DNA from: Closterium sp. NIES-65
Lineage: Eukaryota; Streptophyta; Zygnematophyceae; Desmidiales; Closteriaceae
Length of the DNA: 64,000 bases
Assembly: GCA_948144175.1 (NCBI GenBank)
Contig: CANXME010002672.1
Span: forward strand, 96,468-160,467
Direction of reading: 5' to 3'
Shown here: piece by piece, positions 10,403-47,000 of the stretch
Numbering within the stretch: the first letter of the stretch is position 1
How the letters are laid out: each line of letters starts with the position of its first letter
Notes under the pieces: generated by a model
What the model saw: the letters and a program-made list of their open reading frames with translations, nothing else
What the model was told of the DNA's origin: nothing
Database searches by the model: none
Program-made: the position numbers and the translations under genes

Positions 10403-13400
10403 AGATGGCGTTTCCTTGTTGATTGTCCCGTGAGATACAGCTCAGTACTTTCGCAATGGAACGCCCTCCGCCGTCCGCAGTACAAGGGAAGGGTGAAAGG
10501 CAGCAAAGCACTGCGAAAGCACTGCGAAGGGTTTCGCACTGTCACGTCCTCCGCCGTCCTCCATTCCTCAGCCCTATCTCTCTCCCCGCATTCTCGACTC
10601 GCAGGGACCTCCGCTGTCAGCAGCAGCGCTGGCGATCTGTCTCCATCCATCGCCAGCCGCACTGCGACGTCACTCGCGGTTCGCAGCAGCGTCGCCGCGC
10701 GCGGCCCTGGCGGTCGCTCGTCCGTCAGGTGAGCGGCGAGTCTCAAGCTACAGCCAAGACTGCCTCTTTTCCCGTTGTTTGCGCGGCCCTGGCGGTCGCT
10801 CGTCCGTCAGGTGAGCTCGCCGCGTCTGCAGCGACTTTCGAGTCGACTCAAAGTTGATTCCTGACTGTCTGTATGAGTATCAAGATATTCTACATTCTCG
10901 TTTTTCTTTAAGGACCTGCTTGCTGCTAGCTCTCCCCCAGCACGTGTTTAAAGATTGGTTTTGAGGCGTCTCAAAATCAATCTTCTATCACGTGATGCCT
11001 GCCTGTCTGATATTTTACCCCCGCCTCACCCTTCCTAGGTGACTTTTGAGTCGACTCAAAAGTCAAATCAATCTTCTATCACGTGATGCCTGCCTGTCTG
11101 ATATTTTACCCCCGCCTCACCCTTCCTCCCCCTTGCCCCCACCCCCCCTGCATGCGTAATTTGAAATTCCCTCCCTGCAGTGGCATGGTTGCGACTGTGT
11201 TTGGCGCCACGGGCTTTCTGGGGAGATACGTGGTGCAGCAGTTAGGTAAGAGAAACCCTTACTATAAAACTTCTGGTAGCTGGTTTGGTACTCCCTGCAG
11301 TGGCATGGTTGCGACTGTGTTTGGCGCCACGGGCTCTCTTGGGAGATACGTGGTGCAGCAGTTAGGTGAGTGAAGCACTTACAAGGTGGAGAGATCATGC
11401 AACAGTCTTTGTCCCATCGACTTTTGAGTCGACTCATAAGTCCACTTACAAGTGGAGAGATCTTACAAGGTGAAGCAACAATCTTTGTCCTTCGATTGTG
11501 CAATCTTCAGATTCGAATCTGAAGTCGCAATGGATGGTGCCCTGTCATCTGCCATCGCCTTTGTTTCCCTTTTCCGCTCGTTCCCTTCAGTCCTGTCATC
11601 AACCCACCCGCCGCCGTCTCCCCGCCTCCACTATCTTTCCTTCTCCCCCCACAGCCCGCTCGGGTTCCCAGGTGATGGTACCCTACCGCTGCCTGGGGGA
11701 TGGTCACAGGCACCTCTTTCGAATCCTTGTATATCCCCTCCGTATAATTCCCCTCCCTCCCCTTCCTCTCCTGCCCTCTCATTCTTTCTCCCTCGCAGCC
11801 CGCTCGGGTTCCCAGGTGATGGTGCCCTATCGCTGCCTGGAGGACGACCACAGGCACCTCAAGCTGTGCGGGGACCTGGGGCAGGTGAGGCATGGGGAAG
11901 GTGACACGTGAGGCAGGTTGAACTGGGGCCGGGTGGGGTATGGGACAGGGGTATGGTGCCCTATCGCTGCCTGGAGGACGACCACAGGCACCTCAAGCTG
12001 TGCGGGGACCTCGGGCAGGTGGGATATGGGGCAGGTGGGATGAGGGGGAAGGTAATATATGGGCTAGGTGGGCTGTGAGTCAGGAGCCTGGAGGACGACC
12101 ACAGGCACCTCAAGCTGTGTGGCGACCTCGGGCAGGTGGGATATGGGGCAGGCAAGATCTGGTGAGGTATGGGGCAGGTGAGCCGAGGTCTGGGGCAGGT
12201 TGATTTGAAGCATTGCTGCTGGGATCGCTTGTTCGGCTGTCATTCACGCGTTCCTTATATATACCTATGTTCCGTCTCTCCTTCCTCCTGAGCCTCTCTT
12301 CTTGATCAGGTGGTCCCCATTGTACCGATCTTCCATTGCCCGCGTCCCTTACCCTTTCCTTCTCCCGCCCTTTCCCGCGTCCCTTACCCTTTCCTTCTCC
12401 CGCCCTTTCCCGCGTACCTTACCCTTTTCTTCTCCCGCCCTTTCTCACCAGGTGGTGCCCATGCCGTTTGACGTTAGGAGCGATGAGAGCATTGCTGCGG
12501 CTATTGCCAAGTCGAATGTTGTCATCAACCTCATTGGTCAGTGGTGGATGTGTTCTCAACATGTCTTCGAATTCGAGTTCTTGTATGCATCTTAATATAA
12601 ATATATGGAACATAAATAACCATATACGTTGAAGCAAACATTTGCTCATGCCTCTCCTGCCCTCTCTTCTGGCCCCTCTCCTCTCTCCTCGTCTCCCCTC
12701 TTTGTCTCATCTGCACTCCCTCGTTTCCTCCCTACCCCACCCACCCAGGTCGTGACTTTGAGAAGCGCAATTTCAGCTGTGAGGACATCAACATCTCAGC
12801 GCCTATCTCCTCCCCTCCTCCCTCCCCCTCTCTGCTCCCATTTCCTTTCCTCCTCTGCTCCCCACCCCACCCAGGCCGTGACTTTGAGACGCGCAACTTC
12901 AGCTTCGAGGACATCAACATCTCTGCACCGCAGCGCATTGCCAGGGTGAGCTGACTTGGAGATTGGAGCTGGCCTGAGTTGGCCTGAGTTGACCTGAGTG
13001 ACCTGCGTTGACTTGTGTTGACCTTCATTGACCTGGGCTGTATGAGTCAACTTCAGCTTCGAGGACATCAACACCTCAGTGCCTCAGCGCGAGGACATCA
13101 GCACCTCATTGCCTCAGCGCGAGGACATCAACACCTCAGTGCCTCAGCGCGAGGACATCAACACCTCAGTGCCTCAGCGCGAGGACATCAACACCTCAGT
13201 GCCTCAGCGCGAGGACATCAACACCTCAGTGCCTCAGCGCGAGGACATCAACACCTCAGTGCCTCAGCGCGAGGACATCAACACCTCAGTGCCTCAGCGC
13301 ATTGCCAGGGTGAGACAAGATGACGCTCCTTCCCCTTCTTTCAAACCAACCCCCATTCCTCTGCCAGATCGCCAGGGAGCATGGGGGCATCGCACGCCTG

Positions 13401-16400
13401 CTCTGCTGCACCTTCCCTGCCTGGGCACTGCCCCCCGCACTCTCATACCTCCACTCAACTTACCACCCTTTCCCGCTTTCCATGTGCACTTTTTTTCCTC
13501 TTTCCCCCTACACCTTCATCAGATCGCCAGGGAGCATGGGGGAATCACACGCCTGGTGCACCTCTCCTGCCTGGGCTCCGCCCCCCGCACTCCAATTCTT
13601 CCACTCTTCTCGCTCTTTCCCTCTTTCCCTCTTTCCCCTCTACTCCTTTCACAGATCGCCAGGGAGCATGGCGGCATTGCAAGGATGGTCCACCTCTCCT
13701 GCCCGGGCGCTGCTCCCCTCACTCTTATTCCTCCACTTATTTCCCCCTTTCCGCATTCTCTTTTTGTCAGATCGCCAGGGAGCATGGCGGCATTGCAAGG
13801 ATGGTCCACCTCTCCTGCCCGGGCGCTGCTCCCCTCACTCTTATTCCTCCACTCAATTCCCCCTTCCCGCATTCTCTTTTTGTCAGATCGCCAGGGAGCA
13901 TGGCGGCATTGCAAGGATGGTCCACCTCTCCTGCCCGGGCGCTGCTCCCCTCACTCTTATTCCTCCACTCAATTCCCCCTTCCCGCATTCTCTTTTTGTC
14001 AGATCGCCAGGGAGCATGGCGGCATTGCAAGGATGGTCCACCTCTCCTGCCCGGGCGCTGCTCCCCTCACTCTTATTCCTCCACTTATTTCCCCCTTTCC
14101 GCATTCTCTTTTTGTCAGATCGCCAGGGAGCATGGCGGCATTGCAAGGATGGTCCACCTCTCCTGCCCAGGCGCTGCTCCCCTCACTCTTATTCCTCCAC
14201 TCAATTCCCCCTTCCCACATTCTCTTTTTGTCAGATCGCCAGGGAGCATGGCGGCATTGCAAGGATGGTCCACCTCTCCTGCCCGGGCGCTGCTCCCCTC
14301 ACTCTTATTCCTCCACTCAATTCCCCCTTCCCGCATTCTCTTTTTGTCAGATCGCCAGGGAGCATGGCGGCATTGCAAGGATGGTCCACCTCTCCTGCCC
14401 GGGCGCTGCTCCCCTCACTCTTATTCCTCCACTTATTTCCCCCTTTCCGCATTCTCTTTTTGTCAGATCGCCAGGGAGCATGGCGGCATTGCAAGGATGG
14501 TCCACCTCTCCTGCCCAGGCGCTGCTCCCCTCACTCTTATTCCTCCACTTATTTCCCCCTTCCCACATTCTCTTTTTGTCAGATCGCCAGGGAGCATGGC
14601 GGCATTGCAAGGATGGTCCACCTCTCCTGCCCGGGCGCTGCTCCCCTCACTCTTATTCCTCCACTCATTTCCCCCTTCCCGCATTCTCTTTTTGTCAGAT
14701 CGCCAGGGAGCATGGCGGCATTGCAAGGATGGTCCACCTCTCCTGCCCGGGCGCTGCTCCCCTCACTCTTATTCCTCCACTCATTTCCCCCTTCCCGCAT
14801 TCTCTTTTTGTCAGATCGCCAGGGAGCATGGCGGCATTGCAAGGATGGTCCACCTCTCCTGCCCGGGCGCTGCTCCCCTCACTCCTATTCCTCCACTTAT
14901 TTCCCCCTTTCCGCATTCTCTTTTTGTCAGATCGCCAGGGAGCATGGCGGCATTGCAAGGATGGTCCACCTCTCCTGCCCGGGCGCTGCTCCCCTCACTC
15001 TTATTCCTCCACTTATTTCCCCCTTTCCGCATTCTCTTTTTGTCAGATCGCCAGGGAGCATGGCGGCATTGCAAGGATGGTCCACCTCTCCTGCCCAGGC
15101 GCTGCTCCCCTCACTCTTATTCCTCCACTCAATTCCCCCTTCCCACATTCTCTTTTTGTCAGATCGCCAGGGAGCATGGCGGCATTGCAAGGATGGTCCA
15201 CCTCTCCTGCCCGGGCGCTGCTCCCCTCACTCTTATTCCTCCACTCAATTCCCCCTTCCCGCATTCTCTTTTTGTCAGATCGCCAGGGAGCATGGCGGCA
15301 TTGCAAGGATGGTCCACCTCTCCTGCCCGGGCGCTGCTCCCCTCACTCTTATTCCTCCACTTATTTCCCCCTTTCCGCATTCTCTTTTTGTCAGATCGCC
15401 AGGGAGCATGGCGGCATTGCAAGGATGGTCCACCTCTCCTGCCCAGGCGCTGCTCCCCTCACTCTTATTCCTCCACTTATTTCCCCCTTTCCGCATTCTC
15501 TTTTTGTCAGATCGCCAGGGAGCATGGCGGCATTGCAAGGATGGTCCACCTCTCCTGCCCAGGCGCTGCTCCCCTCACTCTTATTCCTCCACTCATTTCC
15601 CCCTTCCCACATTCTCTTTTTGTCAGATCGCCAGGGAGCATGGCGGCATTGCAAGGATGGTCCACCTCTCCTGCCCGGGCGCTGCTCCCCTCACTCTTAT
15701 TCCTCCACTCATTTCCCCCTTCCCACATTCTCTTTTTGTCAGATCGCCAGGGAGCATGGCGGCATTGCAAGGATGGTCCACCTCTCCTGCCCGGGCGCTG
15801 CTCCCCTCACTCTTATTCCTCCACTTATTTCCCCCTTTCCGCATTCTCTTTTTGTCAGATCGCCAGGGAGCATGGCGGCATTGCAAGGATGGTCCACCTC
15901 TCCTGCCCGGGCGCTGCTCCCCTCACTCTTATTCCTCCACTCATTTCCCCCTTCCCACATTCTCTTTTTGTCAGATCGCCAGGGAGCATGGTGGCATTGC
16001 AAGGATGGTCCACCTCTCCTGCCCGGGCGCTGCTCCCCTCACTCCTATTCCTCCACTTATTTCCCCCTTTCCGCATTCTCTTTTTGTCAGATCGCCAGGG
16101 AGCATGGCGGCATTGCAAGGATGGTCCACCTCTCCTGCCCGGGCGCTGCTCCCCTCACTCTTATTCCTCCACTCATTTCCCCCTTCCCGCATTCTCTTTT
16201 TGTCAGATCGCCAGGGAGCATGGCGGCATTGCAAGGATGGTCCACCTCTCCTGCCCGGGCGCTGCTCCCCTCACTCTTATTCCTCCACTCATTTCCCCCT
16301 TCCCGCATTCTCTTTTTGTCAGATCGCCAGGGAGCATGGCGGCATTGCAAGGATGGTCCACCTCTCCTGCCCGGGCGCTGCTCCCCTCACTCCTATTCCT

Positions 16401-17884
16401 CCACTTATTTCCCCCTTTCCGCATTCTCTTTTTGTCAGATCGCCAGGGAGCATGGCGGCATTGCAAGGATGGTCCACCTCTCCTGCCCGGGCGCTGCTCC
16501 CCTCACTCTTATTCCTCCACTCATTTCCCCCTTCCCGCATTCTCTTTTTGTCAGATCGCCAGGGAGCATGGCGGCATTGCAAGGATGGTCCACCTCTCCT
16601 GCCCGGGCGCTGCTCCCCTCACTCTTATTCCTCCACTCATTTCCCCCTTCCCGCATTCTCTTTTTGTCAGATCGCCAGGGAGCATGGCGGCATTGCAAGG
16701 ATGGTCCACCTCTCCTGCCTGGGCGCTGCCCCCCACGCGCCCTCCAAGCAGCACCAGACCAAGGCGCTGGGGGAGGCAGCAGTATTGTCGGAATTCCCAC
16801 AGGTGAGTGGTGTGAGGGCTTTTCACGCTCGTTTCTATCTAGGGGGGTTCGCTGTTCAGGTTCAGGGTCTAGGGTTTAGGGAGTAATGCCCCCGTCCTGC
16901 ATGGGCGCTGCTCCCCACGCGCCCTCCAAGCAGCACCAGACCAAGGCACTGGGGGAGGCAGCTGTGGAGTTCCCACAGGTGAGTGGTTTGAGGGCTTAAT
17001 ACTGTCAGTCAGTTCAAGGGGGGTTCTTGGGTCAGGTTCATGGTCTTGGGTTTAGGGAGTCATATCCTTGTCTGCTCCCCACGCGCCCTCCAAGCAGCAC
17101 CAAGGCGCTGGGAGAGGTGGCTGTACTGGCTGAATCTCCACAACCACAGGCGAGTAGGGTGGGGCCCAAGGGGTGAAGTTGGGGTTTGTGACTCTCTGGG
17201 AGTAGGACTCTCACAAAGTAAGGCGATAGTTCAGAAGCACCATGAGCCATGGTCAATTTCGGTGCTCATGGCGAAGAAGCTTTGTCCTCTGCCTGCCCTG
17301 TGTCTCCACACCGCCACGTCTCCATCCCCTTTCCCTCCCCTGTCCTTGCCCCTGTCACCAGGCCACATTCTGAGGACTGGTCCGCTGGCAGGCACGGAGG
17401 ACCGCCTGCTCAACAGCTGGGCTGGGCGCTCAAGGGGAAAAAGCTCGTACCCTCTTCTGCTCCTCCCTTCACTCAACTCGTGTTTCCTCTGTGCACCCTT
17501 ACCACCAGGCCACCATCCTGCGGACTGGTCCCTTGGCAGGCACGGAGGACCGCCTGCTCAACAGCTGGGCGCTCATGGCCAAGAAGTTCCCGTTTGTCCC
17601 CGTTATAGCAGGCGGCAAGACTCTGTAAGTGGCGTTATAGTGTAGATTCATAGTTTGTCCCCGTTATAACAGGGGAAATACACTGTTGATGGCGTTACGA
17701 TGTAGATTGATTCCCAGTTTGTCCCGTTATAGCAGGCGACAAGAGACTTCAATTCCAGAAACCACACATTAACTTATTCTGTACATAAATTCCCCTTGTA
17801 CTCCCTCTCTCCCCACCACCAGCATTCAACCCGTGCACGTGTTGGCAACAGCAGTCAACACCACATTAGTCTTGGCCTCCTTCC

Positions 17885-17979
<95 letters not shown>

Positions 17980-20564
17980 GATATCCTCCCCTCCCTTTTC
18001 CCCCACCAGTATCCAGCCAGTGTAAGTGCTGCAGGTGGCAACAGCAGTCAACGCCACCGTCACTGACCATGGCAGCGCCTGTTACCCTTGGTGTTTGCAA
18101 GCCCTCTCTTATCCTTGCCCTCGCCTCCCCCTCTTTCCTTGCCCCCCACCCCCAACCGGGATCCAACCGGTATATGTGCTGGACGTGGCAACAGCAGTCA
18201 ACGCCACCGTCACTGATTATGGCAGCAGCTGATGTCAATGTTTCAACTCATCCCTTCTATTTCTCACCTTTCCCCCTTTTTTCCCCACCAGCATTCAGCC
18301 GGTATACGTGTTGGACGTGGCAACAGCAGTCAATGCCACTGTGACTGACGACGGCAGCAGCTGCGGGCAAACGTACGAGCTGGGTGGGCCAGAAGTGCTG
18401 CAAATCAGGGACCTGGTGAGTTGAGTTGCAACAGCCGGGCTGTAAGGCGTTTAGGATTGGATTGTACGAACTGGTAGAGCCTCAGTCATAACAGGGTACT
18501 GATGACCGCAGTAGCTGTGTGGGTAAACGTACGAGCTGGGGGGACCAGAGGTGCTGCAAATCAGGGACCTGGTGAGTCTGGATTCAACACCTGTACTTGA
18601 TGGTGGTAGCAGCAGGCAGCACCTGCGCACAGCTGCACTGTGAATTGGAAACCATTCGCCAGCACTCCTCCATTCTCAGCGTCCCTCCTCCTTCTCCTCC
18701 CCTGCCCCCTCCCTCCTCCTCCCACCTTCCCCTCTCCTTCCTCCCTCCCTCCCTTCTCCCTTCTCCCTTCTCCCTTCTCCCCTTCACAGGTGAACCGTGT
18801 CTTGGAAACCATTCGCCAGCACTCCTCCATTCTCAGCGTCCCTCTTCCTGTCGCCCGGGTGAGTGCGCGGTGCAAATAGGTTGAGGAGTGGTGTGTGAAA
18901 GTTAGAAGAAAGAAGAAGGATTGCACTAGCAAGAATGGGGATACAAATAGGAAACCCTAGAAGGGTTGTACTCGCTATAGAGCACCCCACTACAGGCTAG
19001 AGCATAAGATAACATTCTGACATGGTGTACATAAGATGGCGAGTGGTGCAGGTGGTGGGTGGGGCAATGAGTAGCTGAGCACTCTCCTCAGCACTCTTCA
19101 TTTCGCAGCATCCCACTTCTTTTCACTTGGGTGGGTGCATGGATGCTTTGTGCATGGAGTGGGATTTCCCACGGACGCCATCCCACTGGATTTCCCACTC
19201 CACCGCCCATGGATGCTCAGGACGCCCATGATTCCCATGGCTCCTGCCTATTCCCCTCCCCATTCCCTCCTCCCCCCCCCATACCTCCCCTTCTGCACCC
19301 TCTATTCCCCCCCCCCCTTAGGCCCTCGCCACCCCACGGGAGTTTCTCCTCCACCGCGTGCCAACGCCCATCCCCAGCCCCACCATGTTCACGCTCGACT
19401 ACATCAACTCCCTCTCCTTCCCCCACATTGTCTCGCCCAACGGTACGCCCACACTCTCTTGGTATCTTGTTCTGGGCTTCCAAAGCCCGACAGTAAGCCT
19501 CGTATCATCTGCGGGAGGAGGCATTTCACAACACCTTGCAACGTTTATCCCCAGCCCAACCATCTTCATGGTCGATTACATCAACTCCCTCTCCTTCCCC
19601 CACATCGTCTCGTCCTCCTCCCGTCCTCAGTAACTGTGTCTTTGCGTCCCAGGGGTCACCCTGACTCATGTTTCGAAGGGCTGCAGTAGCAGAGAGGACG
19701 CTTAAGCAAAGGAACAAACAGTGAAAACTGGTGAAAAAAAAACGCAGTCCTCCTCCCGTCCTCAGTAACTGTGTCTTTGCGTCCCTCTCTGGCCTTCTCC
19801 CCGTTCCCCCTCTTCACAGCGCTCACTTTCAACAACGTTGCGATCATCCCGCACCCTCTCACGGACCTGGTTTTTTAGACTTCTCAAAAACAAGCTCTCA
19901 CAGCCCTCACAATCAACTATCTCTTTGCTTACCTTGTCCGCCCTTCCTTGTCTTCACTACCTCATTTACAGTCTCTTTGCGTCCCACTCTTGTCTTTTCC
20001 CCCACCCTTCTCCCCCCAGCGCTCACGTTCAAGGACCTTGGGATCATCCCGCACCCGCTCACGGGCCTCACAATTGACTACCTCTTTGCTTATCGCAGCG
20101 GCGGGCCGCAGTACGGCCAGACTGTCGGCGAGAATGTGTCTGGCGCTGGCGTCTGGTCACTGAACCCAAATACTTGTTCCCTTGGTCTTTCTCCCCCTCC
20201 CCCCCCCCCCCCCCCCCGCCCCCCAGCGCTCACGTTCAAGGACCTTGGGATCATCCCGCACCCGCTCACGGGCCTCACAATTGACTACCTCTTTGCTTAT
20301 CGCAGCGGCGGCCCGCAGTACGGCCAGACTGTCGGCGAGAAGGTGTCTGGCGCTGGCGTCTGGTCACTGAACCTAAATACTTGTTCCCTTGGTCTTTCTC
20401 CCCCTCCCCCCCCCCCCCGCCCCCCAGCGCTCACGTTCAAGGACCTTGGGATCATCCCGCACCCGCTCACGGGCCTCACAATTGACTACCTCTTTGCTTA
20501 TCGCAGCGGCGGGCCGCAGTACGGCCAGACTGTCGGCGAGAAGGTGTCTGGCGCAGGCTTCTAG
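10403..20564 (+). CDS. NDUFA9: NADH:ubiquinone oxidoreductase 39 kDa subunit (complex I, NDUFA9)
   Basis: This is the accessory subunit of mitochondrial respiratory complex I, an atypical short-chain dehydrogenase (SDR) that binds NADPH structurally. Exons, supported by GT/AG sites and matching phases: exon 1 ?-10728, then 11181-11245, 11799-11884, 12452-12536, 12875-12945, 16671-16802, 17509-17624, 18292-18415, 18790-18858, 19322-19442, 20428-20564 (stop TAG 20562). Exons 2-11 encode about 335 residues. Exon 1 ends GGRSSV and splices into SGMVATVFGATGFLGRY, the family's nucleotide-binding start (GATGFLG). Later family blocks include VVINLIG, AREHGG, VHLSCLGA, LAGTEDRLLNSW, PVYVLDVATAV, TYELGGPEV and SGGPQYGQTV. 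Exon 1 is Ser/Arg-rich, as expected for a mitochondrial presequence, but no in-frame ATG lies between the stop at 10400 and 10728. The start codon must be in an unrecognised upstream exon, or the sequence has an indel. Almost every exon has extra copies nearby. Confidence 0.92.
10782..10814 (+). repeat. Duplicate of the 3' end of NDUFA9 exon 1 with its splice donor
   Basis: The last 29 bases of exon 1 plus GTGAG (10700-10733) recur here with the same sequence around GGCGGTCGCTCGTCCGTCAG followed by GTGAGC. The copy lies in a different reading frame relative to its upstream sequence, so it would not extend exon 1 directly. It could act as an alternative donor. Confidence 0.75.
10833..10856. 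repeat. Palindrome (TCGA centre), imperfect
   Basis: Near-palindrome ACTTTCGAGTCGACTCAAAG in NDUFA9 intron 1; member of the TTTTGAG/CTCAAAA palindrome family. Confidence 0.75.
10951..10984. repeat. Palindrome (GCGT centre) with extended arms
   Basis: Core TTTTGAGGCGTCTCAAAA with outer arms AAGATTG and CAATCTT. It is followed by a 63-bp segment (10974-11036) that is repeated after the next palindrome at 11040. Confidence 0.8.
11040..11065. repeat. 26-bp perfect palindrome (TCGA centre) between two 63-bp direct repeats
   Basis: Core TTTTGAGTCGACTCAAAA, extended to TGAC...GTCA. Direct copies of a 63-bp segment starting AAATCAATCTTCTATCACGT lie on each side (10974-11036 and 11065-11127). Confidence 0.9.
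11301..11365 (+). repeat. Second full copy of NDUFA9 exon 2
   Basis: The copy has the same 65 bp length, acceptor CTCCCTGCAG and donor GTGAGT as exon 2 (11181-11245). It differs in the coding part only at GGCTTTCTG versus GGCTCTCTT, giving GATGSLG instead of GATGFLG. Because 65 is not a multiple of 3, using both copies would break the frame, so the two would have to be mutually exclusive. Which one is used cannot be told from sequence; the Phe version matches the family. Confidence 0.85.
11419..11442. repeat. Palindrome (TCGA centre), one mismatch, in a flanking duplication
   Basis: GACTTTTGAGTCGACTCATA then AGTC. The flank CACTTACAAGGTGGAGAGATC before it (from about 11376) reappears after it as CACTTACAAGTGGAGAGATC (from about 11444), and CAACAGTCTTTGTCC recurs as CAACAATCTTTGTCC. 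Confidence 0.85.
11655..12136 (+). repeat. Partial copies of NDUFA9 exon 3
   Basis: A 5' copy at 11655-11718 keeps the acceptor CCCCACAG but diverges before the exon end and has no donor. The true exon is 11799-11884. Two 3' copies, about 11951-12019 and about 12090-12137, keep the end of the exon (GACGACCACAGGCACCTCAA ... GGGCAG) with donors GTGGGA but have no acceptor. The exon's left half is thus duplicated upstream and its right half downstream. Confidence 0.85.
12305..12808 (+). repeat. Partial copies of NDUFA9 exons 4 and 5
   Basis: A short copy of the exon 4 start follows CAG at about 12308 (GTGGTCCCCATTG). The CT-rich intron between 12340 and 12450 is itself a triplicated CCCGCGTCCCTTACCCTTTC block. 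A copy of exon 5 follows CCCAG at 12749 (GTCGTGACTTTGAGAAGCGC) but decays after ATCTCAGCGCC and lacks a donor. The functional exon 5 is 12875-12945. Confidence 0.75.
13061..13309 (+). repeat. 30-bp in-frame array derived from NDUFA9 exon 5, 8 copies
   Basis: Eight units of GAGGACATCAACACCTCAGT plus GCCTCAGCGC (10 codons, EDINTSVPQR) are flanked by exon-5 sequence: CAACTTCAGCTTC before and ATTGCCAGG followed by GTGAG after. It is an exon 5 copy whose middle has been amplified in multiples of 3. No clear acceptor precedes it, so inclusion in mRNA is uncertain. Confidence 0.9.
13368..13654 (+). repeat. Two diverged 5' copies of NDUFA9 exon 6
   Basis: Copies begin after CAG at 13367 and 13522 with ATCGCCAGGGAGCATGGGGG and keep about 70 bp of exon-like sequence before pyrimidine-rich DNA. 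They lead into the regular 116-bp array. Confidence 0.8.
13655..16670 (+). repeat. 116-bp tandem array: 26 copies of the exon 6 splice acceptor and exon start
   Basis: ATCGCCAGGGAGCATGG recurs every 116 bp exactly from 13655 to 16671, giving 26 repeat units before the true exon. Each unit holds a pyrimidine tract, the acceptor TTCTCTTTTTGTCAG and about 70 bp of the exon 6 start (REHGGIARMVHLSC) but no donor. Units differ by a few recurrent substitutions (CCCGGG/CCCAGG, CTCATTT/CTTATTT/CTCAATT, CCGCAT/CCACAT). 116 is not a multiple of 3, yet all three forward frames stay open for more than 1100 codons. Those long frames are a by-product of the repeat. Confidence 0.95.
16897..17150 (+). repeat. 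Two 3' copies of NDUFA9 exon 6
   Basis: CACGCGCCCTCCAAGCAGCA and following exon sequence recurs at about 16915-16978 (donor GTGAGTGG retained) and about 17079-17150 (donor changed to GCGAGT). Neither copy has an acceptor. Confidence 0.85.
17362..17430 (+). repeat. Partial copy of NDUFA9 exon 7
   Basis: After CACCAG, GCCACATTCTGAGGACTGGT matches exon 7 (17509-17624), but it carries a frame-changing difference (CATTCTGAGG for CATCCTGCGG gives a stop) and decays after AACAGCTGGGC. Confidence 0.8.
17823..18230 (+). repeat. Three partial copies of NDUFA9 exon 8
   Basis: Copies start at about 17823, 18010 and 18160 with ATTCAACCCGTGCACG, TATCCAGCCAGTGTAA and GATCCAACCGGTATAT, and share GTGGCAACAGCAGTCAACGC or a close form. 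The second has TAA in the exon frame. The full exon is 18292-18415. Confidence 0.85.
17888..17978. repeat. (CA)n then (TA)n microsatellite
   Basis: About 37 CA dinucleotides followed by about 8 TA dinucleotides, inside the first exon 8 copy region. Confidence 0.95.
18497..18700 (+). repeat. Partial copies of exon 8 (3' end) and exon 9 (5' part)
   Basis: At about 18511-18573 the exon 8 end (AAACGTACGAGCTGGGGGGA to GGGACCTG) recurs with donor GTGAGT. At about 18642-18687 the exon 9 block TTGGAAACCATTCGCCAGCA recurs without an acceptor. Confidence 0.85.
19549..19630 (+). repeat. Partial copy of NDUFA9 exon 10
   Basis: TATCCCCAGCCCAACCATCT and ATCAACTCCCTCTCCTTCCC repeat the 3' half of exon 10. 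The following CTCCTCCCGTCCTCAGTAAC is itself repeated at about 19748. Confidence 0.8.
19824..20366 (+). repeat. Three copies of NDUFA9 exon 11
   Basis: A diverged copy begins at about 19824 and is interrupted at 19870 by a degenerate palindrome. Two near-perfect copies start at 20020 and 20227 with good acceptors. They run past the stop position (GGCGTCTGG instead of GGCTTCTAG), so only the last exon, 20428-20564, has the stop codon. The repeat period of about 205 bp includes a poly-C acceptor tract. Confidence 0.9.
19870..19893. repeat. Degenerate palindrome inserted in an exon 11 copy
   Basis: GTTTTTTAGACTTCTCAAAA plus AC lies between CTCACGGACCT and CTCACAGCCCT, which look like an 11-bp duplication of the exon sequence CTCACGGGCCT. 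This is the clearest case of a palindrome entering a known sequence. Confidence 0.6.
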
Positions 20565-20910
20565 GCTCTGAGATGCAAACCTGTTGCTTCTTAGAAAAGT
20601 ATTTGGGTAATTCATCTGGAATGTCTGGCGCTGGCTTCTAGTTTCTAGTGTCTTGTGCTGGTTAGAGAAATAAGCTGCCGAAAGTAATTTCGCCTTTTTA
20701 ATCATCAGCAAATTGGCTGTAAGGAAATTCTACAAATTCATTAAGGCGTATGTTCTCACCCTGACGCAGTTAACGAAAGCGAGCTAGCTGTAACGCGTAT
20801 ATGCTGTATTTTTCATTCGCAGCACAATCCCTCTCGCGGATATCTTTTCAGTTGTGGTTTATCGCGCAAGTAGAGAGCTCAGCATTTTGGTCTGCGCCAA
20901 TTCCGCCACC

Positions 20911-23900: not shown

Positions 23901-26013
23901 GCAGGGGAGAGGAGACTTCTGAGTACACTCCAAAGGCACTGAGCAGGGGAGAGGAGACTTCTGAGTACACTCCAAAGGCACTGAGCAGGGGAGAGGAGAC
24001 TTCTGAGTACACTCCAAAGGCACTGAGCAGGGGAGAGGAGACTTCTGAGTACACTCCAAAGGCACTGAGCAGGGGAGAGGAGACTTCTGAGTACACTCCA
24101 AAGGCACTGAGCAGGGGAGAGGAGACTTCTGAGTACACTCCAAAGGCACTGAGCAGGGGAGAGGAGACTTCTGAGTACACTCCAAAGGCACTGAGCAGGG
24201 GAGAGGAGACTTCTGAGTACACTCCAAAGGCACTGAGCAGGGGAGAGGAGACTTCTGAGTACACTCCAAAGGCACTGAGCAGGGGAGAGGAGACTTCTGA
24301 GTACACTCCAAAGGCACTGAGCAGGGGAGAGGAGACTTCTGAGTACACTCCAAAGGCACTGAGCAGGGGAGAGGAGACTTCTGAGTACACTCCAAAGGCA
24401 CTGAGCAGGGGAGAGGAGACTTCTGAGTACACTCCAAAGGCACTGAGCAGGGGAGACGGCGGACGATGTGGTTGCTCAACTGCAGAAGGAGTTTGGCAAA
24501 GAGAACGTGGTGGTGAGTGGTGGGGTGGGGAGTGGTGGGGAGTGGTGGAGAGTGGTGGAGAGGATTGTGTGTCAGATCATCCGGCCAGTTAATTCCCCGA
24601 TTGAATTCCTCAATTCCCTCAGCTCGCTGTAGTGCTGTGCTGTACCATCACTTCCCCCCTTCACCCCCTTATCCTACCCCACTCCTTCCCACCCCATCCC
24701 ACCCCACCCCACCCCACCACATCCTTTCTCAACCGTCAGCATCCTCCTTAACCCAAAGCACCGAATGCGATGTCTTTAGAAAGGACAACGTCAAGCTCAC
24801 TCTGCTGTCCAGTCAACTCATCAGACCCACTTGACCCTCTCCCTCTTGTTGCTTGTTCCTTTCTGTCGCATACCATCTGTGTTTCGAGGTGACTTTTGAG
24901 TCGACTCAAAAGTCATCTCTTGTAACGTGTTCCTTTCTGTGGGATGCCATCTGTGTTTCCCCTCCACCGCTGCTCATCCCGTCCGGTCCCACTCTACCCT
25001 ACCCCACCGCACGCCAACCCACACCACCTCACTCCACTCCAGGGCACCGCATGCGATGTGTCTAAGGCGGGGGGTGTGAAGGCGCTGGGTGATCTTGCTT
25101 GCTGTCAGTCCAGTTTTGAGACAACTCATACGCACTAAACCCTATCCCACCGATTCTCACCCCACTTCACCCTTTCCCACTCCAGGGCACCGCATGCGAT
25201 GTATCTAAGGCAGAGGATGTGAAGGCTCTGGCTGAATTTGCTGTCAAATCACTTGGATCCGTGGATGTGTGGGTGAGTTGACTAAGTTGACTCGTGTTGA
25301 CGCAAGTCGATCTGACTAATCTCAAATCACTTGGATCCGTGGATGTGTGGGTGAGTTGACTTGACATAAATTGCGCTGACCTGAGTTGACCTGAGTTGAC
25401 CTGGGAGCTGGCTCTCCTGTATACTCACCACGCATGTATTAGTTAGGCGCCTAAAACATCGTCTGTGTGGGAGCCTTTCCTGTCCACTCTGCACGCATGC
25501 ATTCTGTCTTACCTGCATGCGCTCATGTAACTTCTCCCTGCATGCTTGTGTGTGTGTGCGTGTGTGCACGCATGTGTTATTGATGCACCTCAAAAATCGT
25601 CTGTGTGGGAGCCTTTCCTGTCCACTCTGCACGCATGCATTCTGTCTTACCTGCATGCGCTCATGTAACTTCTCCCTGCATGCTTGTGTGTGTGTGCGTG
25701 TGTGCACGCATGTGTTATTGATGCACCTCAAAAATCGTCTGTGTGGGAGCCTTTCCTGTCCACTCTGCACGCATGCATTCTGTCTTGCCTGCATGCGCTC
25801 ATGTAACTTCTCCCTGCATGCTTCTGTGCGTGTGCGCGCGCGTGTATGTCTGTGTGTGTGCATGCGTGTGTGTGCGTGTGTGCGTGTGTGCGTGTGTGTG
25901 TGCGTGTGTGTGTGCGTGTGTGTGTGCGTGTGTGTGTGTGTGTGTGTGCGTGTGTGCGTGTGTGCGTGTGTGTGTGCGTGTGTGTGTGCGTGTGTGTGTG
26001 CGTGTGTGTGTGT

Positions 26014-26097
<84 letters not shown>

Positions 26098-38000: not shown

Positions 38001-41000
38001 TTGTAGAGCCAACCAGCACCTCTTTTCCTGTTTGTAGAGCCAACCAGCACCTCTTTTCCTGTTTGTAGAGCCAACCAGCACCTCTTTTCCTGTTTGTAGA
38101 GCCAACCAGCACCTCTTTTCCTGTTTGTAGAGCCAACCAGCACCTCTTTTCCTGTTTGTAGAGCCAACCAACACCTCTTTTCCTGTTTGTAGAGCCAACC
38201 AGCACCTCTTTTCCTGTTTGTAGAGCCAACCAGCACCTCTTTTCCTGTTTGTACAGCCAACCAGCACCTCTTTTCCTGTTTGTAGAGCCAACCAGCACCT
38301 CTTTTCCTGTTTGTAGAGCCATCCAGCACCTCTTTTCCTGTTTGTAGAGCCAACCAGCACCTCTTTTCCTGTTTGTAGAGCCAACCAACACCTCTTTTCC
38401 TGTTTGTAGAGCCAACCAACACCTCTTTTCCTGTTTGTAGAGCCAACCAACACCTCTTTTCCTGTTTGTAGAGCCAACCAACACCTCTTTTCCTGTTTGT
38501 AGAGCCAACCAACACCTCTTTTCCTGTTTGTAGAGCCAACCAGCACCTCTTTTCCTGTTTGTAGAGCCAACCAACACCTCTTTTCCTGTTTGTAGAGCCA
38601 ACCAACACCTCTTTTCCTGTTTGTAGAGCCAACCAACACCTCTTTTCCTGTTTGTAGAGCCAACCAACACCTCTTTTCCTGTTTGTAGAGCCAACCAGCA
38701 CCTCTTTTCCTGTTTGTAGAGCCAACCAACACCTCTTTTCCTGTTTGTAGAGCCAACCAGCACCTCTTTTCCTGTTTGTAGAGCCAACCAACACCTCTTT
38801 TCCTGTTTGTAGAGCCAACCAACACCTCTTTTCCTGTTTGTAGAGCCAACCAGCACCTCTTTTCCTGTTTGTAGAGCCAACCAACACCTCTTTTCCTGTT
38901 TGTAGAGCCAACCAACACCTCTTTTCCTGTTTGTAGAGCCAACCAACACCTCTTTTCCTGTTTGTAGAGCCAACCAACACCTCTTTTCCTGTTTGTAGAG
39001 CCAACCAGCACCTCTTTTCCTGTTTGTAGAGCCAACCAGCACCTCTTTTCCTGTTTGTAGAGCCAACCAGCACCTCTTTTCCTGTTTGTAGAGCCAACCA
39101 ACACCTCTTTTCCTGTTTGTAGAGCCAACCAGCACCTCTTTTCCTGTTTGTAGAGCCAACCAACACCTCTTTTCCTGTTTGTAGAGCCAACCAACACCTC
39201 TTTTCCTGTTTGTAGAGCCAACCAGCACCTCTTTTCCTGTTTGTAGAGCCAACCAACACCTCTTTTCCTGTTTGTAGAGCCAACCAGCACCTCTTTTCCT
39301 GTTTGTAGAGCCAACCAGCACCTCTTTTCCTGTTTGTAGAGCCAACCAGCACCTCTTTTCCTGTTTGTAGAGCCAACCAACACCTCTTTTCCTGTTTGTA
39401 GAGCCAACCAACACCTCTTTTCCTGTTTGTAGAGCCAACCAGCACCTCTTTTCCTGTTTGTAGAGCCAACCAACACCTCTTTTCCTGTTTGTAGAGCCAA
39501 CCAGCACCTCTTTTCCTGTTTGTAGAGCCAACCAGCACCTCTTTTCCTGTTTGTAGAGCCAACCAGCACCTCTTTTCCTGTTTGTAGAGCCAACCAGCAC
39601 CTCTTTTCCTGTTTGTAGAGCCAACCAGCACCTCTTTTCCTGTTTGTAGAGCCAACCAGCACCTCTTTTCCTGTTGTAGAGCCAACCAGCACCTCTTTTC
39701 CTGTTTGTAGAGCCAACCAACACCTCTTTTCCTGTTTGTAGAGCCAACCAGCACCTCTTTTCCTGTTTGTAGAGCCAACCAGCACCTCTTTTCCTGTTTG
39801 TACAGCCAACCAGCACCTCTTTTCCTGTTTGTAGAGCCAACCAGCACCTCTTTTCCTGTTTGTAGAGCCATCCAGCACCTCTTTTCCTGTTTGTAGAGCC
39901 AACCAGCACCTCTTTTCCTGTTTGTAGAGCCAACCAACACCTCTTTTCCTGTTTGTAGAGCCAACCAACACCTCTTTTCCTGTTTGTAGAGCCAACCAAC
40001 ACCTCTTTTCCTGTTTGTAGAGCCAACCAACACCGCTACTCCTGTTTGTAGAGCCAACCAACACCTCTTTTCCTGTTTGTAGAGCCAACCAGCACCTCTT
40101 TTCCTGTTTGTAGAGCCAACCAGCACCTCTTTTCCTGTTTGTAGAGCCAACCAGCACCTCTTTTCCTGTTTGTACAGCCAACCAGCACCTCTTTTCCTGT
40201 TTGTAGAGCCAACCAGCACCTCTTTTCCTGTTTGTAGAGCCAACCAGCACCTCTTTTCCTGTTTGTAGAGCCAACCAACACCTCTTTTCCTGTTTGTAGA
40301 GCCAACCAACACCTCTTTTCCTGTTTGGCTCTACAAACAGGAAAAGAGGTGCCTGTTTGTAGAGCCAACCAGCACCTCTTTTCCTGTTTGTAGAGCCAAC
40401 CAGCACCTCTTTTCCTGTTTGTAGAGCCAACCAACACCTCTTTTCCTGTTTGTAGAGCCAACCAACACCTCTTTTCCTGTTTGTAGAGCCAACCAACACC
40501 TCTTTTCCTGTTTGTAGAGCCAACCAACACCTCTTTTCCTGTTTGTAGAGCCAACCAGCACCTCTTTTCCTGTTTGTAGAGCCAACCAACACCTCTTTTT
40601 CTGTTTGTAGAGCCAACCAACACCTCTTTTCCTGTTTGTAGAGCCAACCAACACCTCTTTTCCTGTTTGTAGAGCCAACCAACACCTCTTTTCCTGTTTG
40701 TAGAGCCAACCAACACCTCTTTTCCTGTTTGTAGAGCCAACCAACACCTCTTTTCCTGTTTGTAGAGCCAACCAACACCTCTTTTCCTGTTTGTAGAGCC
40801 AACCAGCACCTCTTTTCCTGTTTGTAGAGCCAACCAGCACCTCTTTTCCTGTTTGTAGAGCCAACCAGCACCTCTTTTCCTGTTTGTAGAGCCAACCAAC
40901 ACCTCTTTTCCTGTTTGTAGAGCCAACCAGCACCTCTTTTCCTGTTTGTAGAGCCAACCAACACCTCTTTTCCTGTTTGTAGAGCCAACCAACACCTCTT

Positions 41001-44000
41001 TTCCTGTTTGTAGAGCCAACCAGCACCTCTTTTCCTGTTTGTAGAGCCAACCAACACCTCTTTTCCTGTTTGTAGAGCCAACCAGCACCTCTTTTCCTGT
41101 TTGTAGAGCCAACCAGCACCTCTTTTCCTGTTTGTAGAGCCAACCAGCACCTCTTTTCCTGTTTGTAGAGCCAACCAACACCTCTTTTCCTGTTTGTAGA
41201 GCCAACCAACACCTCTTTTCCTGTTTGTAGAGCCAACCAGCACCTCTTTTCCTGTTTGTAGAGCCAACCAACACCTCTTTTCCTGTTTGTAGAGCCAACC
41301 AGCACCTCTTTTCCTGTTTGTAGAGCCAACCAGCACCTCTTTTCCTGTTTGTAGAGCCAACCAGCACCTCTTTTCCTGTTTGTAGAGCCAACCAGCACCT
41401 CTTTTCCTGTTTGTAGAGCCAACCAGCACCTCTTTTCCTGTTTGTAGAGCCAACCAGCACCTCTTTTCCTGTTTGTAGAGCCAACCAGCACCTCTTTTCC
41501 TGTTTGTAGAGCCAACCAGCACCTCTATTCCTGTTTGTAGAGCCAACCAACACCTCTTTTCCTGTTTGTAGAGCCAACCAACACCTCTTTTCCTGTTTGT
41601 AGAGCCAACCAACACCTCTTTTCCTGTTTGTAGAGCCAACCAACACCTCTTTTCCTGTTTGTAGAGCCAACCAGCACCTCTTTTCCTGTTTGTAGAGCCA
41701 ACCAACACCTCTTTTTCTGTTTGTAGAGCCAACCAACACCTCTTTTCCTGTTTGTAGAGCCAACCAACACCTCTTTTCCTGTTTGTAGAGCCAACCAACA
41801 CCTCTTTTCCTGTTTGTAGAGCCAACCAACACCTCTTTTCCTGTTTGTAGAGCCAACCAACACCTCTTTTCCTGTTTGTAGAGCCAACCAACACCTCTTT
41901 TCCTGTTTGTAGAGCCAACCAGCACCTCTTTTCCTGTTTGTAGAGCCAACCAGCACCTCTTTTCCTGTTTGTAGAGCCAACCAGCACCTCTTTTCCTGTT
42001 TGTAGAGCCAACCAACACCTCTTTTCCTGTTTGTAGAGCCAACCAGCACCTCTTTTCCTGTTTGTAGAGCCAACCAACACCTCTTTTCCTGTTTGTAGAG
42101 CCAACCAACACCTCTTTTCCTGTTTGTAGAGCCAACCAGCACCTCTTTTCCTGTTTGTAGAGCCAACCAACACCTCTTTTCCTGTTTGTAGAGCCAACCA
42201 GCACCTCTTTTCCTGTTTGTAGAGCCAACCAGCACCTCTTTTCCTGTTTGTAGAGCCAACCAGCACCTCTTTTCCTGTTTGTAGAGCCAACCAACACCTC
42301 TTTTCCTGTTTGTAGAGCCAACCAACACCTCTTTTCCTGTTTGTAGAGCCAACCAGCACCTCTTTTCCTGTTTGTAGAGCCAACCAACACCTCTTTTCCT
42401 GTTTGTAGAGCCAACCAGCACCTCTTTTCCTGTTTGTAGAGCCAACCAGCACCTCTTTTCCTGTTTGTAGAGCCAACCAGCACCTCTTTTCCTGTTTGTA
42501 GAGCCAACCAGCACCTCTTTTCCTGTTTGTAGAGCCAACCAGCACCTCTTTTCCTGTTTGTAGAGCCAACCAGCACCTCTTTTCCTGTTTGTAGAGCCAA
42601 CCAGCACCTCTTTTCCTGTTTGTAGAGCCAACCAACACCTCTTTTCCTGTTTGTAGAGCCAACCAGCACCTCTTTTCCTGTTTGTAGAGCCAACCAGCAC
42701 CTCTTTTCCTGTTTGTACAGCCAACCAGCACCTCTTTTCCTGTTTGTAGAGCCAACCAGCACCTCTTTTCCTGTTTGTAGAGCCATCCAGCACCTCTTTT
42801 CCTGTTTGTAGAGCCAACCAGCACCTCTTTTCCTGTTTGTAGAGCCAACCAACACCTCTTTTCCTGTTTGTAGAGCCAACCAACACCTCTTTTCCTGTTT
42901 GTAGAGCCAACCAACACCTCTTTTCCTGTTTGTAGAGCCAACCAACACCGCTACTCCTGTTTGTAGAGCCAACCAACACCTCTTTTCCTGTTTGTAGAGC
43001 CAACCAGCACCTCTTTTCCTGTTTGTAGAGCCAACCAGCACCTCTTTTCCTGTTTGTAGAGCCAACCAGCACCTCTTTTCCTGTTTGTACAGCCAACCAG
43101 CACCTCTTTTCCTGTTTGTAGAGCCAACCAGCACCTCTTTTCCTGTTTGTAGAGCCAACCAGCACCTCTTTTCCTGTTTGTAGAGCCAACCAACACCTCT
43201 TTTCCTGTTTGTAGAGCCAACCAACACCTCTTTTCCTGTTTGTAGAGCCAACCAGCACCTCTTTTCCTGTTTGTAGAGCCAACCAGCACCTCTTTTCCTG
43301 TTTGTAGAGCCAACCAACACCTCTTTTCCTGTTTGTAGAGCCAACCAACACCTCTTTTCCTGTTTGTAGAGCCAACCAACACCTCTTTTCCTGTTTGTAG
43401 AGCCAACCAACACCTCTTTTCCTGTTTGTAGAGCCAACCAGCACCTCTTTTCCTGTTTGTAGAGCCAACCAACACCTCTTTTTCTGTTTGTAGAGCCAAC
43501 CAACACCTCTTTTCCTGTTTGTAGAGCCAACCAACACCTCTTTTCCTGTTTGTAGAGCCAACCAACACCTCTTTTCCTGTTTGTAGAGCCAACCAACACC
43601 TCTTTTCCTGTTTGTAGAGCCAACCAACACCTCTTTTCCTGTTTGTAGAGCCAACCAACACCTCTTTTCCTGTTTGTAGAGCCAACCAGCACCTCTTTTC
43701 CTGTTTGTAGAGCCAACCAGCACCTCTTTTCCTGTTTGTAGAGCCAACCAACACCTCTTTTCCTGTTTGTAGAGCCAACCAGCACCTCTTTTCCTGTTTG
43801 TAGAGCCAACCAGCACCTCTTTTCCTGTTTGTAGAGCCAACCAGCACCTCATTTCCTGTTTTTAGAGCCAACCAACACCTCTTTTCCTGTTTGTAGAGCC
43901 AACCAACACCTCTTTTCCTGTTTGTAGAGCCAACCAACACCTCTTTTCCTGTTTGTAGAGCCAACCAACACCTCTTTTCCTGTTTGTAGAGCCAACCAAC

Positions 44001-47000
44001 ACCTCTTTTCCTGTTTGTAGAGCCAACCAGCACCTCTTTTCCTGTTTGTAGAGCCAACCAGCACCTCTTTTCCTGTTTGTAGAGCCAACCAACACCTCTT
44101 TTCCTGTTTGTAGAGCCAACCAGCACCTCTTTTCCTGTTTGTAGAGCCAACCAACACCTCTTTTCCTGTTTGTAGAGCCAATCAACACCTCTTCTCCTGT
44201 TTGTAGAGCCAACCAACACCTCTTTTCCTGTTTGTAGAGCCAACCAACACCTCTTTTCCTGTTTGTAGAGCCAACCAGCACCTCTTTTCCTGTTTGTAGA
44301 GCCAACCAACACCTCTTTTCCTGTTTGTAGAGCCAACCAACACCTCTTTTCCTGTTTGTAGAGCCAACCAACACCTCTTTTCCTGTTTGTAGAGCCAACC
44401 AACACCTCTTTTCCTGTTTGTAGAGCCAACCAACACCTCTTTTCCTGTTTGTAGAGCCAACCAACACCTCTTTTCCTGTTTGTAGAGCCAACCAACACCT
44501 GTTTTCCTGGTTGTAGAGCCAACCAACACCTCTTTTCCTGTTTGTAGAGCCAACCAACACCTCTTTTCCTGTTTGTAGAGCCAACCAACACCTCTTTTCC
44601 TGTTTGTAGAGCCAACCAACACCTCTTTTCCTGTTTGTAGAGCCAACCAACACCTCTTTTCCTGTTTGTAGAGCCAACCAACACCTCTTTTCCTGTTTGT
44701 AGAGCCAACCAGCACCTCTTTTCCTGTTTGTAGAGCCAACCAGCACCTCTTTTCCTGTTTGTAGAGCCAACCAACACCTCTTTTCCTGTTTGTAGAGCCA
44801 ACCAGCACCTCTTTTCCTGTTTGTAGAGCCAACCAGCACCTCTTTTCGTGTTTGTAGAGCCAACCAGCACCTCATTTCCTGTTTGTAGAGCCAACCAACA
44901 CCTCTTTTCCTGTTTGTAGAGCCAACCAACACCTCTTTTCCTGTTTGTAGAGCCAACCAACACCTCTTTTCCTGTTTGTAGAGCCAACCAACACCTCTTT
45001 TCCTGTTTGTAGAGCCAACCAACACCTCTTTTCCTGTTTGTAGAGCCAACCAGCACCTCATTTCCTGTTTGTAGAGCCAACCAGCACCTCTTTTCCTGTT
45101 TGTAGAGCCAACCAACACCACTTTTCCTGTTTGTAGAGCCAACCAGCACCTCTTTTCCTGTTTGTAGAGCCAACCAACACCTCTTTTCCTGTTTGTAGAG
45201 CCAACCAACACCTCTTCTCCTGTTTGTAGAGCCAACCAACACCTCTTTTCCTGTTTGTAGAGCCAACCAACACCTCTTTTCCTGTTTGTAGAGCCAACCA
45301 GCACCTCTTTTCCTGTTTGTAGAGCCAACCAACACCTCTTTTCCTGTTTGTAGAGCCAACCAACACCTCTTTTCCTGTTTGTAGAGCCAACCAACACCTC
45401 TTTTCCTGTTTGTAGAGCCAACCAACACCTCTTTTCCTGTTTGTAGAGCCAACCAACACCTCTTTTCCTGTTTGTAGAGCCAACCAACACCTCTTTTCCT
45501 GTTTGTAGAGCCAACCAACACCTCTTTTCCTGGTTGTAGAGCCAACCAACACCTCTTTTCCTGTTTGTAGAGCCAACCAACACCTCTTTTCCTGTTTGTA
45601 GAGCCAACCAGCACCTCTTTTCCTGTTTGTAGAGCCAACCAACACCTCTTTTCCTTTTTGTAGAGCCAACCAACACCTCTTTTCCTGTTTGTAGAGCCAA
45701 CCAGCACCTCTTTTCCTGTTTGTAGAGCCAACCAACACCTCTTTTCCTGTTTGTAGAGCCAACCAACACCTCTTTTCCTGTTTGTAGAGCCAACCAGCAC
45801 CTCTTTTCCTGTTTGTAGAGCCAACCAACACCTCTTTTCCTGTTTGTAGAGCCAACCAACACCTCTTCTCCTGTTTGTAGAGCCAACCAACACCTCTTTT
45901 CCTGTTTGTAGAGCCAACCAACACCTCTTTTCCTGTTTGTAGAGCCAACCAGCACCTCTTTTCCTGTTTGTAGAGCCAACCAACACCTCTTTTCCTGTTT
46001 GTAGAGCCAACCAACACCTCTTTTCCTGTTTGTAGAGCCAACCAACACCTCTTTTCCTGTTTGTAGAGCCAACCAACACCTCTTTTCCTGTTTGTAGAGC
46101 CAACCAACACCTCTTTTCCTGTTTGTAGAGCCAACCAACACCTCTTTTCCTGTTTGTAGAGCCAACCAACACCTCTTTTCCTGTTTGTAGAGCCAACCAG
46201 CACCTCTTTTCCTGTTTGTAGAGCCAACCAACACCTCTTTTCCTGTTTGTAGAGCCAACCAGCACCTCTTTTCCTGTTTGTAGAGCCAACCAACACCTCT
46301 TTTCCTGTTTGTAGAGCCAACCAACACCTCTTTTCCTGTTTGTAGAGCCAACCAACACCTCTTCTCCTGTTTGTAGAGCCAACCAACACCTCTTTTCCTG
46401 TTTGTAGAGCCAACCAACACCTCTTTTCCTGTTTGTAGAGCCAACCAGCACCTCTTTTCCTGTTTGTAGAGCCAACCAACACCTCTTTTCCTGTTTGTAG
46501 AGCCAACCAACACCTCTTTTCCTGTTTGTAGAGCCAACCAACACCTCTTTTCCTGTTTGTAGAGCCAACCAACATCTCTTTTCCTGTTTGTGCACATCAA
46601 CCTTATTACTGAAGCATTCTTGCTCATCCCCCTCTCGCTTCTCTACCCCCCTGCTTCTGCCGCAGGTCGCGCAATTCCCCGTGCCACGAGAGAGAGAGGT
46701 GCCTGCTAGCAGTCCCAACCAGCACCTCTACCTGCATTGAATCATTCCTCACCCCCTCTCGCCTCTCTACCCCTTTGCTCTTGCCTCAGGTCGCTCAATT
46801 CCTCGTGCCACGAGTGAGAGAGGTGCCTGCTAGCGGAGCCACAGCTCCCCTTCCTCTCTGTCACAGGTCTTCAGAGTTTTTGAGTCGACTCATAACACGG
46901 CTCCCTTACCCGCTACTTCCTCCCTCTCTCTCCGTCTTCTCTGTCACAGGTCGCTCAATTCCTCGTTCCACGAGTGCAAGAAGTCCCTGCCAGATGTGCC

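Follow-up and report, generated by a model that had tools for sequence, protein, structure and literature searches.

The window analysed here is a stretch of 64,000 nucleotides from Closterium sp. NIES-65 (C2374:96468–160467 of an assembly of 874,075,685 bases in 2400 contigs), and it carries a family of very short palindromes of the form TTTTGAG-N4-CTCAAAA, referred to below as the core. An initial annotation had described such a family and placed it within the genes NDUFA9 and NOL. The family is present, with 11 exact cores together with near and decayed copies; of the two host genes, NDUFA9 is supported by the sequence, whereas NOL is supported only as a short-chain dehydrogenase. The palindrome-bearing genome is probably the nuclear genome of the green alga. 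One genome was examined.

Abundance and form of the palindromic core

The exact cores of the window start at positions 10959, 11044, 24894, 27265, 27582, 28252, 28318, 28384, 28450, 28695 and 29776. Near cores with one or two mismatches occur at 10836, 11422, 26910, 27514 and 46878, and more strongly decayed ones at 19872, 22386 and 25114; in addition, every listed 42-bp unit of an array, from 22657 to 24421, contains a decayed core. When up to two mismatches and a 4-base centre are allowed, every copy falls within 10.8–46.9 kb, the interval to which the family had been assigned. Matches with three mismatches at 10271, 31529 and 47540 are probably noise.

Across the 874-Mb assembly the exact core was found 30,327 times, compared with 4 matches for the same pattern read backwards, and a third-order Markov simulation of the window produced 1 exact core in 20 runs. 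A chance origin of the cores was dismissed on the strength of these two results. The 26 other spacings of 5 to 30 bases gave 2,251 matches in total (control, 164), indicating that a 4-bp centre is strongly preferred, and many of the non-4-bp matches listed consist of two neighbouring palindromes. The rarity of spacings up to 30 bases, the range covered by the search, also disfavours a larger parent element. Perfect palindromes of at least 16 bp, low complexity excluded, were collected from 254 kb; 59 of the 66 belong to the TTTTGAG family in this core-enriched sample, in which array members were counted, and ∼3.7 of any kind would be expected by chance. The half-sites listed are, by eye, largely decayed or tandem palindromes. 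An exact 24-mer gave 0 matches each in viral and prokaryotic collections, from which records of or near this genome were possibly excluded. The cores are unevenly distributed, with at least 30 within 100 kb of contig C6, while the first core on the 2-Mb contig C10 lies at 350 kb.

The 4-base centre is itself palindromic in most copies. Among 55 loci we counted TCGA 29 times, ACGT 11 times, GCGC 6 times and AATT 3 times (49 of 55 together), and the other six are one base off; the GCGT centre at 10959 is a usual centre changed by one base. CCGG, which is palindromic too, has only 4 copies in the genome. In copies with a TCGA centre, the sequence that most often adjoins the core is TGAC (T 71%, G 78%, A 73% and C 88%, from the two arms of 39 copies, with those in arrays counted). 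A longer ACGT form, CACGTG-N12-TTTTGAG-ACGT-CTCAAAA-N12'-CACGTG, was also recognized. Its half-element, CACGTG-N12-TTTTGAGACGTC, occurs 1,120 times in the genome and 0 times in the control; among the half-element places listed, two are entire 54-bp elements with identical arms and a third has two differences between its arms. The N12 sequence is highly variable between copies, while the arms are concordant within a copy.

Flanking duplications, empty sites and array growth

Segments just left of several palindromes had been reported to recur just to their right. We scored direct repeats lying no more than 16 bases from the core with a score of at least 38 (the abutting test). This test replaced a first control that was too loose, since the region is rich in repeats and a score of 30 was reached by 33% of 2000 random positions. 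Such repeats were found at nine of the 13 independent window loci (exact and near cores, the 28252–28450 array being counted once), namely 11044, 11422, 24894, 26910, 27265, 27582, 28252, 28695 and 29776. The corresponding control values, each from 3000 positions, were 0.87% for the whole window and 1.8% for the 10.8–30 kb interval with arrays excluded, rising to 33% in that interval when arrays were included. The test detected no abutting repeats at 10836, 10959, 27514 or 46878; the score was 0 for each of the decayed sites 19872, 22386 and 25114, and 31 for the 42-bp array. At the first of these decayed sites, the initial annotation was right that an exon copy is split, but the flanking duplication is 13 bp with 2 mismatches rather than 11 bp, a length below the reach of the abutting test.

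For comparison outside the window, 19 stretches of 10 kb each (190 kb, denoted by L-numbers) were fetched, 18 of which had been picked because a core was present; 50 cores, forming 35 clusters, occur in them. Abutting duplications were found at 25 of the 35 intact core clusters, compared with 61 of 4000 control positions outside arrays. The proportion was 11 of 27 for decayed palindromes and 0 of 11 for unpaired TTTTGAG half-sites. A BLAST comparison that included the window recovered a duplication at 33 of 42 clusters, with 11044 merged into the 10959 cluster and scored as a miss, and a search out to 1500 bp added one longer match (237 bp, 72%) that is doubtful. At 30 delimited loci, first array units included, the duplication measures 16–94 bp (median 34.5) and the insert 18–38 bp (median 24.5); no clear sequence motif was found at the ends of the duplications across these loci. 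Certain inserts are extended on one side by bases that are not part of the palindrome. At L014:3287 there is an 11-bp repeat, which may be due to chance. Neither of the contrary outcomes that the initial annotation had named, a lack of repeat excess or a duplication that precedes the palindrome at empty sites, was found.

In the same 254 kb from which the perfect palindromes were collected, a sample enriched for cores, 32 of 91 segment-spacer-segment structures with a spacer of 10–60 bp hold the TTTTGAG family (up to three mismatches), and for spacers of 15–40 bp the proportion is 24 of 47, all from this single family. These figures bear on the main, though less likely, alternative, in which the host repairs staggered breaks by filling paired nicks and joining whatever short DNA is available, the abundant palindrome being simply the commonest filler. 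Such capture would account for the geometry of insertion and for the non-family duplications (59 of 91), and the one-sided extra bases and variable duplication lengths speak for it as well. However, 0 of the 59 other spacers are palindromic (score of at least 7), and the segments around them are in many cases longer, in the window including exons as judged by eye; the exon copies may have another origin. Filler capture does not account for the share of short spacers supplied by one family in this core-enriched sample, nor for its multiplication, and 30,327 copies with fixed half-sites require a copying source anyway.

The order of events was assessed at loci for which related copies lack the palindrome. 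L033 and L034 are close copies of the window locus, L033 being 99.7% identical over 1544 bp to the right of 28695 and ∼98% identical to the left, and L034 ∼98% identical. In both, the 19-bp palindrome at 28695 is missing and the 43-bp segment is single. The window's two segments differ from each other, with the right-hand one being one base off the empty sequence and the left-hand one showing several clustered differences, which raises the possibility that the new copy was made with errors. Downstream of 19872, three exon copies in tandem have no insert and a single segment, and at L017:1164 the same holds for two paralogues in the same stretch. Since these empty sites lack both the palindrome and the second copy, insertion and duplication are best taken as one event, and the two probably arise together. 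A duplication older than the palindrome was dismissed at the few loci that have empty sites (28695, 19872 and L017:1164).

The same sites help to separate the two origins first proposed, a mobile element or a site of breakage or fork stalling. The former gains support from the excess of cores across the genome, from the duplications beside them and from the empty sites. The latter, in which existing palindromes are fragile or fork-stalling sites that trigger tandem duplication of their flank, is very improbable. Hairpins destabilise DNA, and three window palindromes fold as single strands into strong hairpins, as this explanation would have it. However, palindrome and second copy are jointly missing at the empty sites, and 27 of the 34 clusters tested hold a single palindrome, which fits poorly because a palindrome already in place would in many cases be expected to be copied together with its flank. 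Neither does fork stalling sit well with the predominance of one sequence family among the perfect palindromes.

An inserted unit may be only the first step. The array at 28211 has four copies in the window but five in L033, a difference suggesting that segment-palindrome-segment units could expand into minisatellites, by a route that would involve unequal exchange or slippage. Two further minisatellites of the window, at 27300–27480 and 29244–29572, have fractional copy numbers of 3.5 and 9.7, as if derived from a palindrome-free segment-filler-segment ancestor. The coordinates of the window features are collected in Table 1.

Table 1. Palindromes of the TTTTGAG family in the window, with their inserts and flanking duplications
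Position	Feature	Direct duplication	Insert and core	Remarks
10836–10853	Near-core palindrome, 2 mismatches	None abutting		
10941–10994	54-bp long-arm element, CACGTG-N12-TTTTGAG-GCGT-CTCAAAA-N12'-CACGTG	None abutting	Core 10959–10976	Arms partly mismatched
10974–11127	Duplication with insert	63 bp, identical copies, 10974–11036 and 11065–11127	Insert 11037–11064; core 11044–11061, TCGA	
11376–11490	Gapped duplication with insert	11376–11414 and 11443–11490	Insert 11415–11442; near-core 11422	
19856–19907	Decayed insert inside exon copy	13 bp, 2 mismatches, 19856–19868 and 19895–19907	Insert 19869–19894	Edges by eye from alignment
22639–24456	Minisatellite, 42 bp x 43		Decayed core per unit	GACTTTTGAGTACACTCCAAAGGC in first two units
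24843–24959	Duplication with insert	43 bp, 86% identity	Insert 24886–24916; core 24894, TCGA	
26875–26968	Duplication with insert	35 bp	Insert 26910–26933; near-core	
27228–27329	Duplication with insert	32 bp	Insert 27260–27297; core 27265, ACGT	Segment reappears in next 51-bp array
27514–27531	Near-core palindrome	None abutting		
27556–27630	Duplication with insert	23 bp	Insert 27579–27607; core 27582, TCGA	Present in L033 too
28211–28508	Minisatellite, 66 bp x 4.5, of segment-palindrome units		4 cores: 28252, 28318, 28384, 28450	5 cores in L033
28651–28756	Duplication with insert	43 bp, 28651–28693 and 28713–28756	19-bp insert 28694–28712, ACGT	L033 and L034: no insert, one segment
29694–29873	48-bp palindrome between diverged copies	69 bp, ∼29694–29762 and 29806–29873	Palindrome 29761–29808; core 29776, ACGT	Boundaries uncertain; in L033 and L034 too
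46878–46895	Near-core palindrome TTTTGAGTCGACTCATAA	None abutting		

Concerted arms and a possible mode of spread

The arm pairing score over the 55 loci (five of the loci files had been obtained by similarity search, the queries themselves bearing palindromes) was 191.5, compared with a permutation mean of 66.7 and a maximum of 116, and was reached in 0 of 20,000 permutations. The result was the same, 0 of 20,000, for the 29 TCGA loci and for the 26 others taken separately, and was 2 of 20,000 for the 13 window loci overall. In five copies chosen for their long arms, 49 pairwise differences are mirrored on both sides and 23 are not. This covariation, together with the four palindromic centre tetramers, the 54-bp forms and the 30,327 exact copies, goes beyond what the initial annotation had described.

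Miniature inverted-repeat transposable elements (MITEs) are non-coding and consist of inverted arms around an interior, flanked by a short duplication of constant length. The palindromes resemble them in being non-coding, in their inverted arms and in having a flanking duplication, and we considered whether they could be ordinary cut-and-paste MITEs so heavily deleted that little but the terminal repeats is left. Copies with longer arms (54 bp) do exist, as such a history would predict. Yet the arms meet at a 4-bp centre, centres of 5–30 bases being rare (longer interiors lie beyond the pattern search), the duplication of 16–94 bp at 30 loci is neither short nor constant, and the arms vary between copies while agreeing within each. 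Descent from degraded MITEs is accordingly most improbable, and the earlier statement that this is not the structure of a classical MITE holds in view of the duplication lengths and the rarity of other spacings.

We think it rather probable that the palindromes are ultra-short, non-coding insertion elements of 18–54 bp, with fixed TTTTGAG half-sites, a palindromic 4-bp centre and variable outer arms, which spread in the nuclear genome by way of a self-complementary intermediate and staggered nicks and thereby seed minisatellites. The palindrome would be inserted between two strand breaks staggered by ∼13–94 bases, and fill-in of the gaps would duplicate the target. The variability of the stagger argues for two separate nicks and against a rigid transpososome. 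The concerted change of the two arms and the persistence of a palindromic centre make a self-complementary intermediate probable. This could be a hairpin in which each arm serves as template for the other, or a half-element dimerized head to head. A hairpin accounts for the matching arms but not for the palindromic centre because the loop is untemplated, and we suggest that half-elements joined through a 4-base self-complementary end would account for both. The element is best read as non-autonomous.

Several observations weigh against this interpretation. The arm test is not significant for the eight TCGA loci of the window (3,198 of 20,000), and the excess of pairing over expectation lies mainly within eight bases of the core, being lost farther out in most copies. 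Most of the fetched stretches were selected for holding a core, 10 of the 35 intact clusters have no duplication, and 59 of the 91 segment-spacer-segment structures do not hold the family. The control of 61 in 4000 excludes tandem arrays that the core clusters keep, and it rises to 11.5% of 3000 positions when arrays are kept in; with arrays in both sets, duplications were found at 24 of 34 clusters and at 19 of 27 single-core clusters. The spread in duplication length is greater than that of any transposase known to us. Neither an enzyme nor an autonomous partner or extrachromosomal form is known, none of these having been searched for.

The empty sites call for similar caution. At any single site, recombination between the repeats may instead have removed the palindrome together with one segment; at 28695 this is countered by the retention in the empty copies of ACACACACC, which is found also in a related exon copy. 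Of the sites for which the window can be compared with L033, 28695 is the only one to differ; the palindromes at 27582, in the array at 28211 and at 29776 occur in both. Three close copies of L010:1299 all have the insert, and a candidate empty site for it aligns on one side only; the candidate empty sites for L009:8805, L018:3264 and L021:3749 gave no clean alignment. L011:971 has a 73% match in L007. An allele comparison at L011:5337 returned three identical places, and one for L016:6400–7900 returned a single 97% match spanning the entire query.

Going further, we tentatively propose, as a possibility that falls a little short of even chances, that these palindromes represent a new class of mobile DNA, a self-complementary unit for which an 18-bp core is sufficient, integrated across a wide and flexible stagger, and that they are a main source of new minisatellites and of intron length change in this alga. 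We know of no smaller self-spreading sequence in a nuclear genome and of no transposon class that combines such a size and copy number with long, variable duplications. If the proposal is correct, sequences of 18–54 bases with neither gene nor interior have multiplied in a eukaryotic nucleus to 30,000 copies with an exact core. The proposal would also explain, in a way open to testing, how minisatellites originate (by duplication, insertion and expansion) and how introns come to hold local duplications, and it would imply that a machinery for integration or break repair is still to be described.

Relation to known systems and neighbouring features

Bacterial repetitive extragenic palindromic (REP) sequences are imperfect palindromes of ∼20–40 bp at high copy number, moved by a REP-associated tyrosine transposase (RAYT) encoded elsewhere and not known to be flanked by long target duplications. 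The Closterium palindromes share with them shortness and copy number but differ in their long duplications (at 25 of 35 clusters) and eukaryotic host. Non-LTR (long terminal repeat) retrotransposons and short interspersed elements nick the two strands separately and so leave duplications that vary in length, and the target duplications seen here vary likewise; in contrast, the insert centres on a palindrome of 18–54 bp, and no recurrent 3' tail was seen when inserts were read by eye. In spacer acquisition by Cas1-Cas2, ∼30-bp DNA is integrated across a wide stagger and a ∼30-bp segment is duplicated, giving segment-insert-segment arrays. Here the likeness is one of geometry only; CRISPR uses a fixed target and diverse inserts, whereas Closterium has one insert family and diverse targets. 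Patch-mediated break repair, in which staggered breaks are filled in to leave a tandem duplication around a filler, matches the duplication around a filler-like insert, but a recurrent filler family is not expected there.

Among plants, the SIRC of Arabidopsis likewise consist of short direct repeats with short spacers (PMC10342631). According to the passages available from that paper, their spacers are diverse, whereas in Closterium it is the spacer that is conserved, with repeats that change from locus to locus. The organelle palindromes of Volvox carteri are, in the passages available, 11–77 nt long, form hairpins with 3–5-nt loops, lie in non-coding organelle DNA, and were judged selfish there and inert in the nucleus (PMC2670323). 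They resemble the present palindromes as short hairpin-forming sequences of the green lineage. In contrast, the copies in the window belong to an 874-Mb assembly and have as neighbours genes whose exons are locally copied and a Copia polyprotein, and one palindrome of the window is missing from close copies of its locus; organelle DNA as such was outside the search. The Volvox passages mention no long flanking duplications, and TTTTGAG does not occur in the main text as available. The Volvox palindromes, REP sequences and MITEs are nearest in form, but the present family departs from each of them in one or more of the defining features tested. No account of such elements was found in the open-access literature at the level of titles and abstract openings, a scope that leaves out most subscription papers and all preprints. 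Several related, partly crossable Closterium strains have been sequenced, with assemblies of 438–975 Mb, and the available main text describing them contains no word beginning with 'palindrom' (PMC10407611).

The surroundings of the palindromes have features of their own. NDUFA9-like and dehydrogenase gene segments recur as local copies at 11171–30400 and 46628–47040, separated by unrelated, non-palindromic spacers and, by eye, comprising exons with splice flanks. Between them, a 31-bp satellite of ∼474 copies with 97% matches occupies 14.7 kb (31889–46591). At 1303–7215, a Copia-type polyprotein open reading frame with RVT_2 and integrase core matches ends at 6330, and a second one in the same frame starts at 6349. 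The open reading frame at 49025–49483, whose match to the zf-C17orf113 zinc finger is slightly under the curated cut-off, is possibly, at a guess, a transposase remnant. Elsewhere in the assembly, a second, unrelated dispersed repeat (L016:7470–7551) measures 82 bp, contains a 44-bp near-perfect palindrome and a T-rich tail, and has at least 38 further near-full places.

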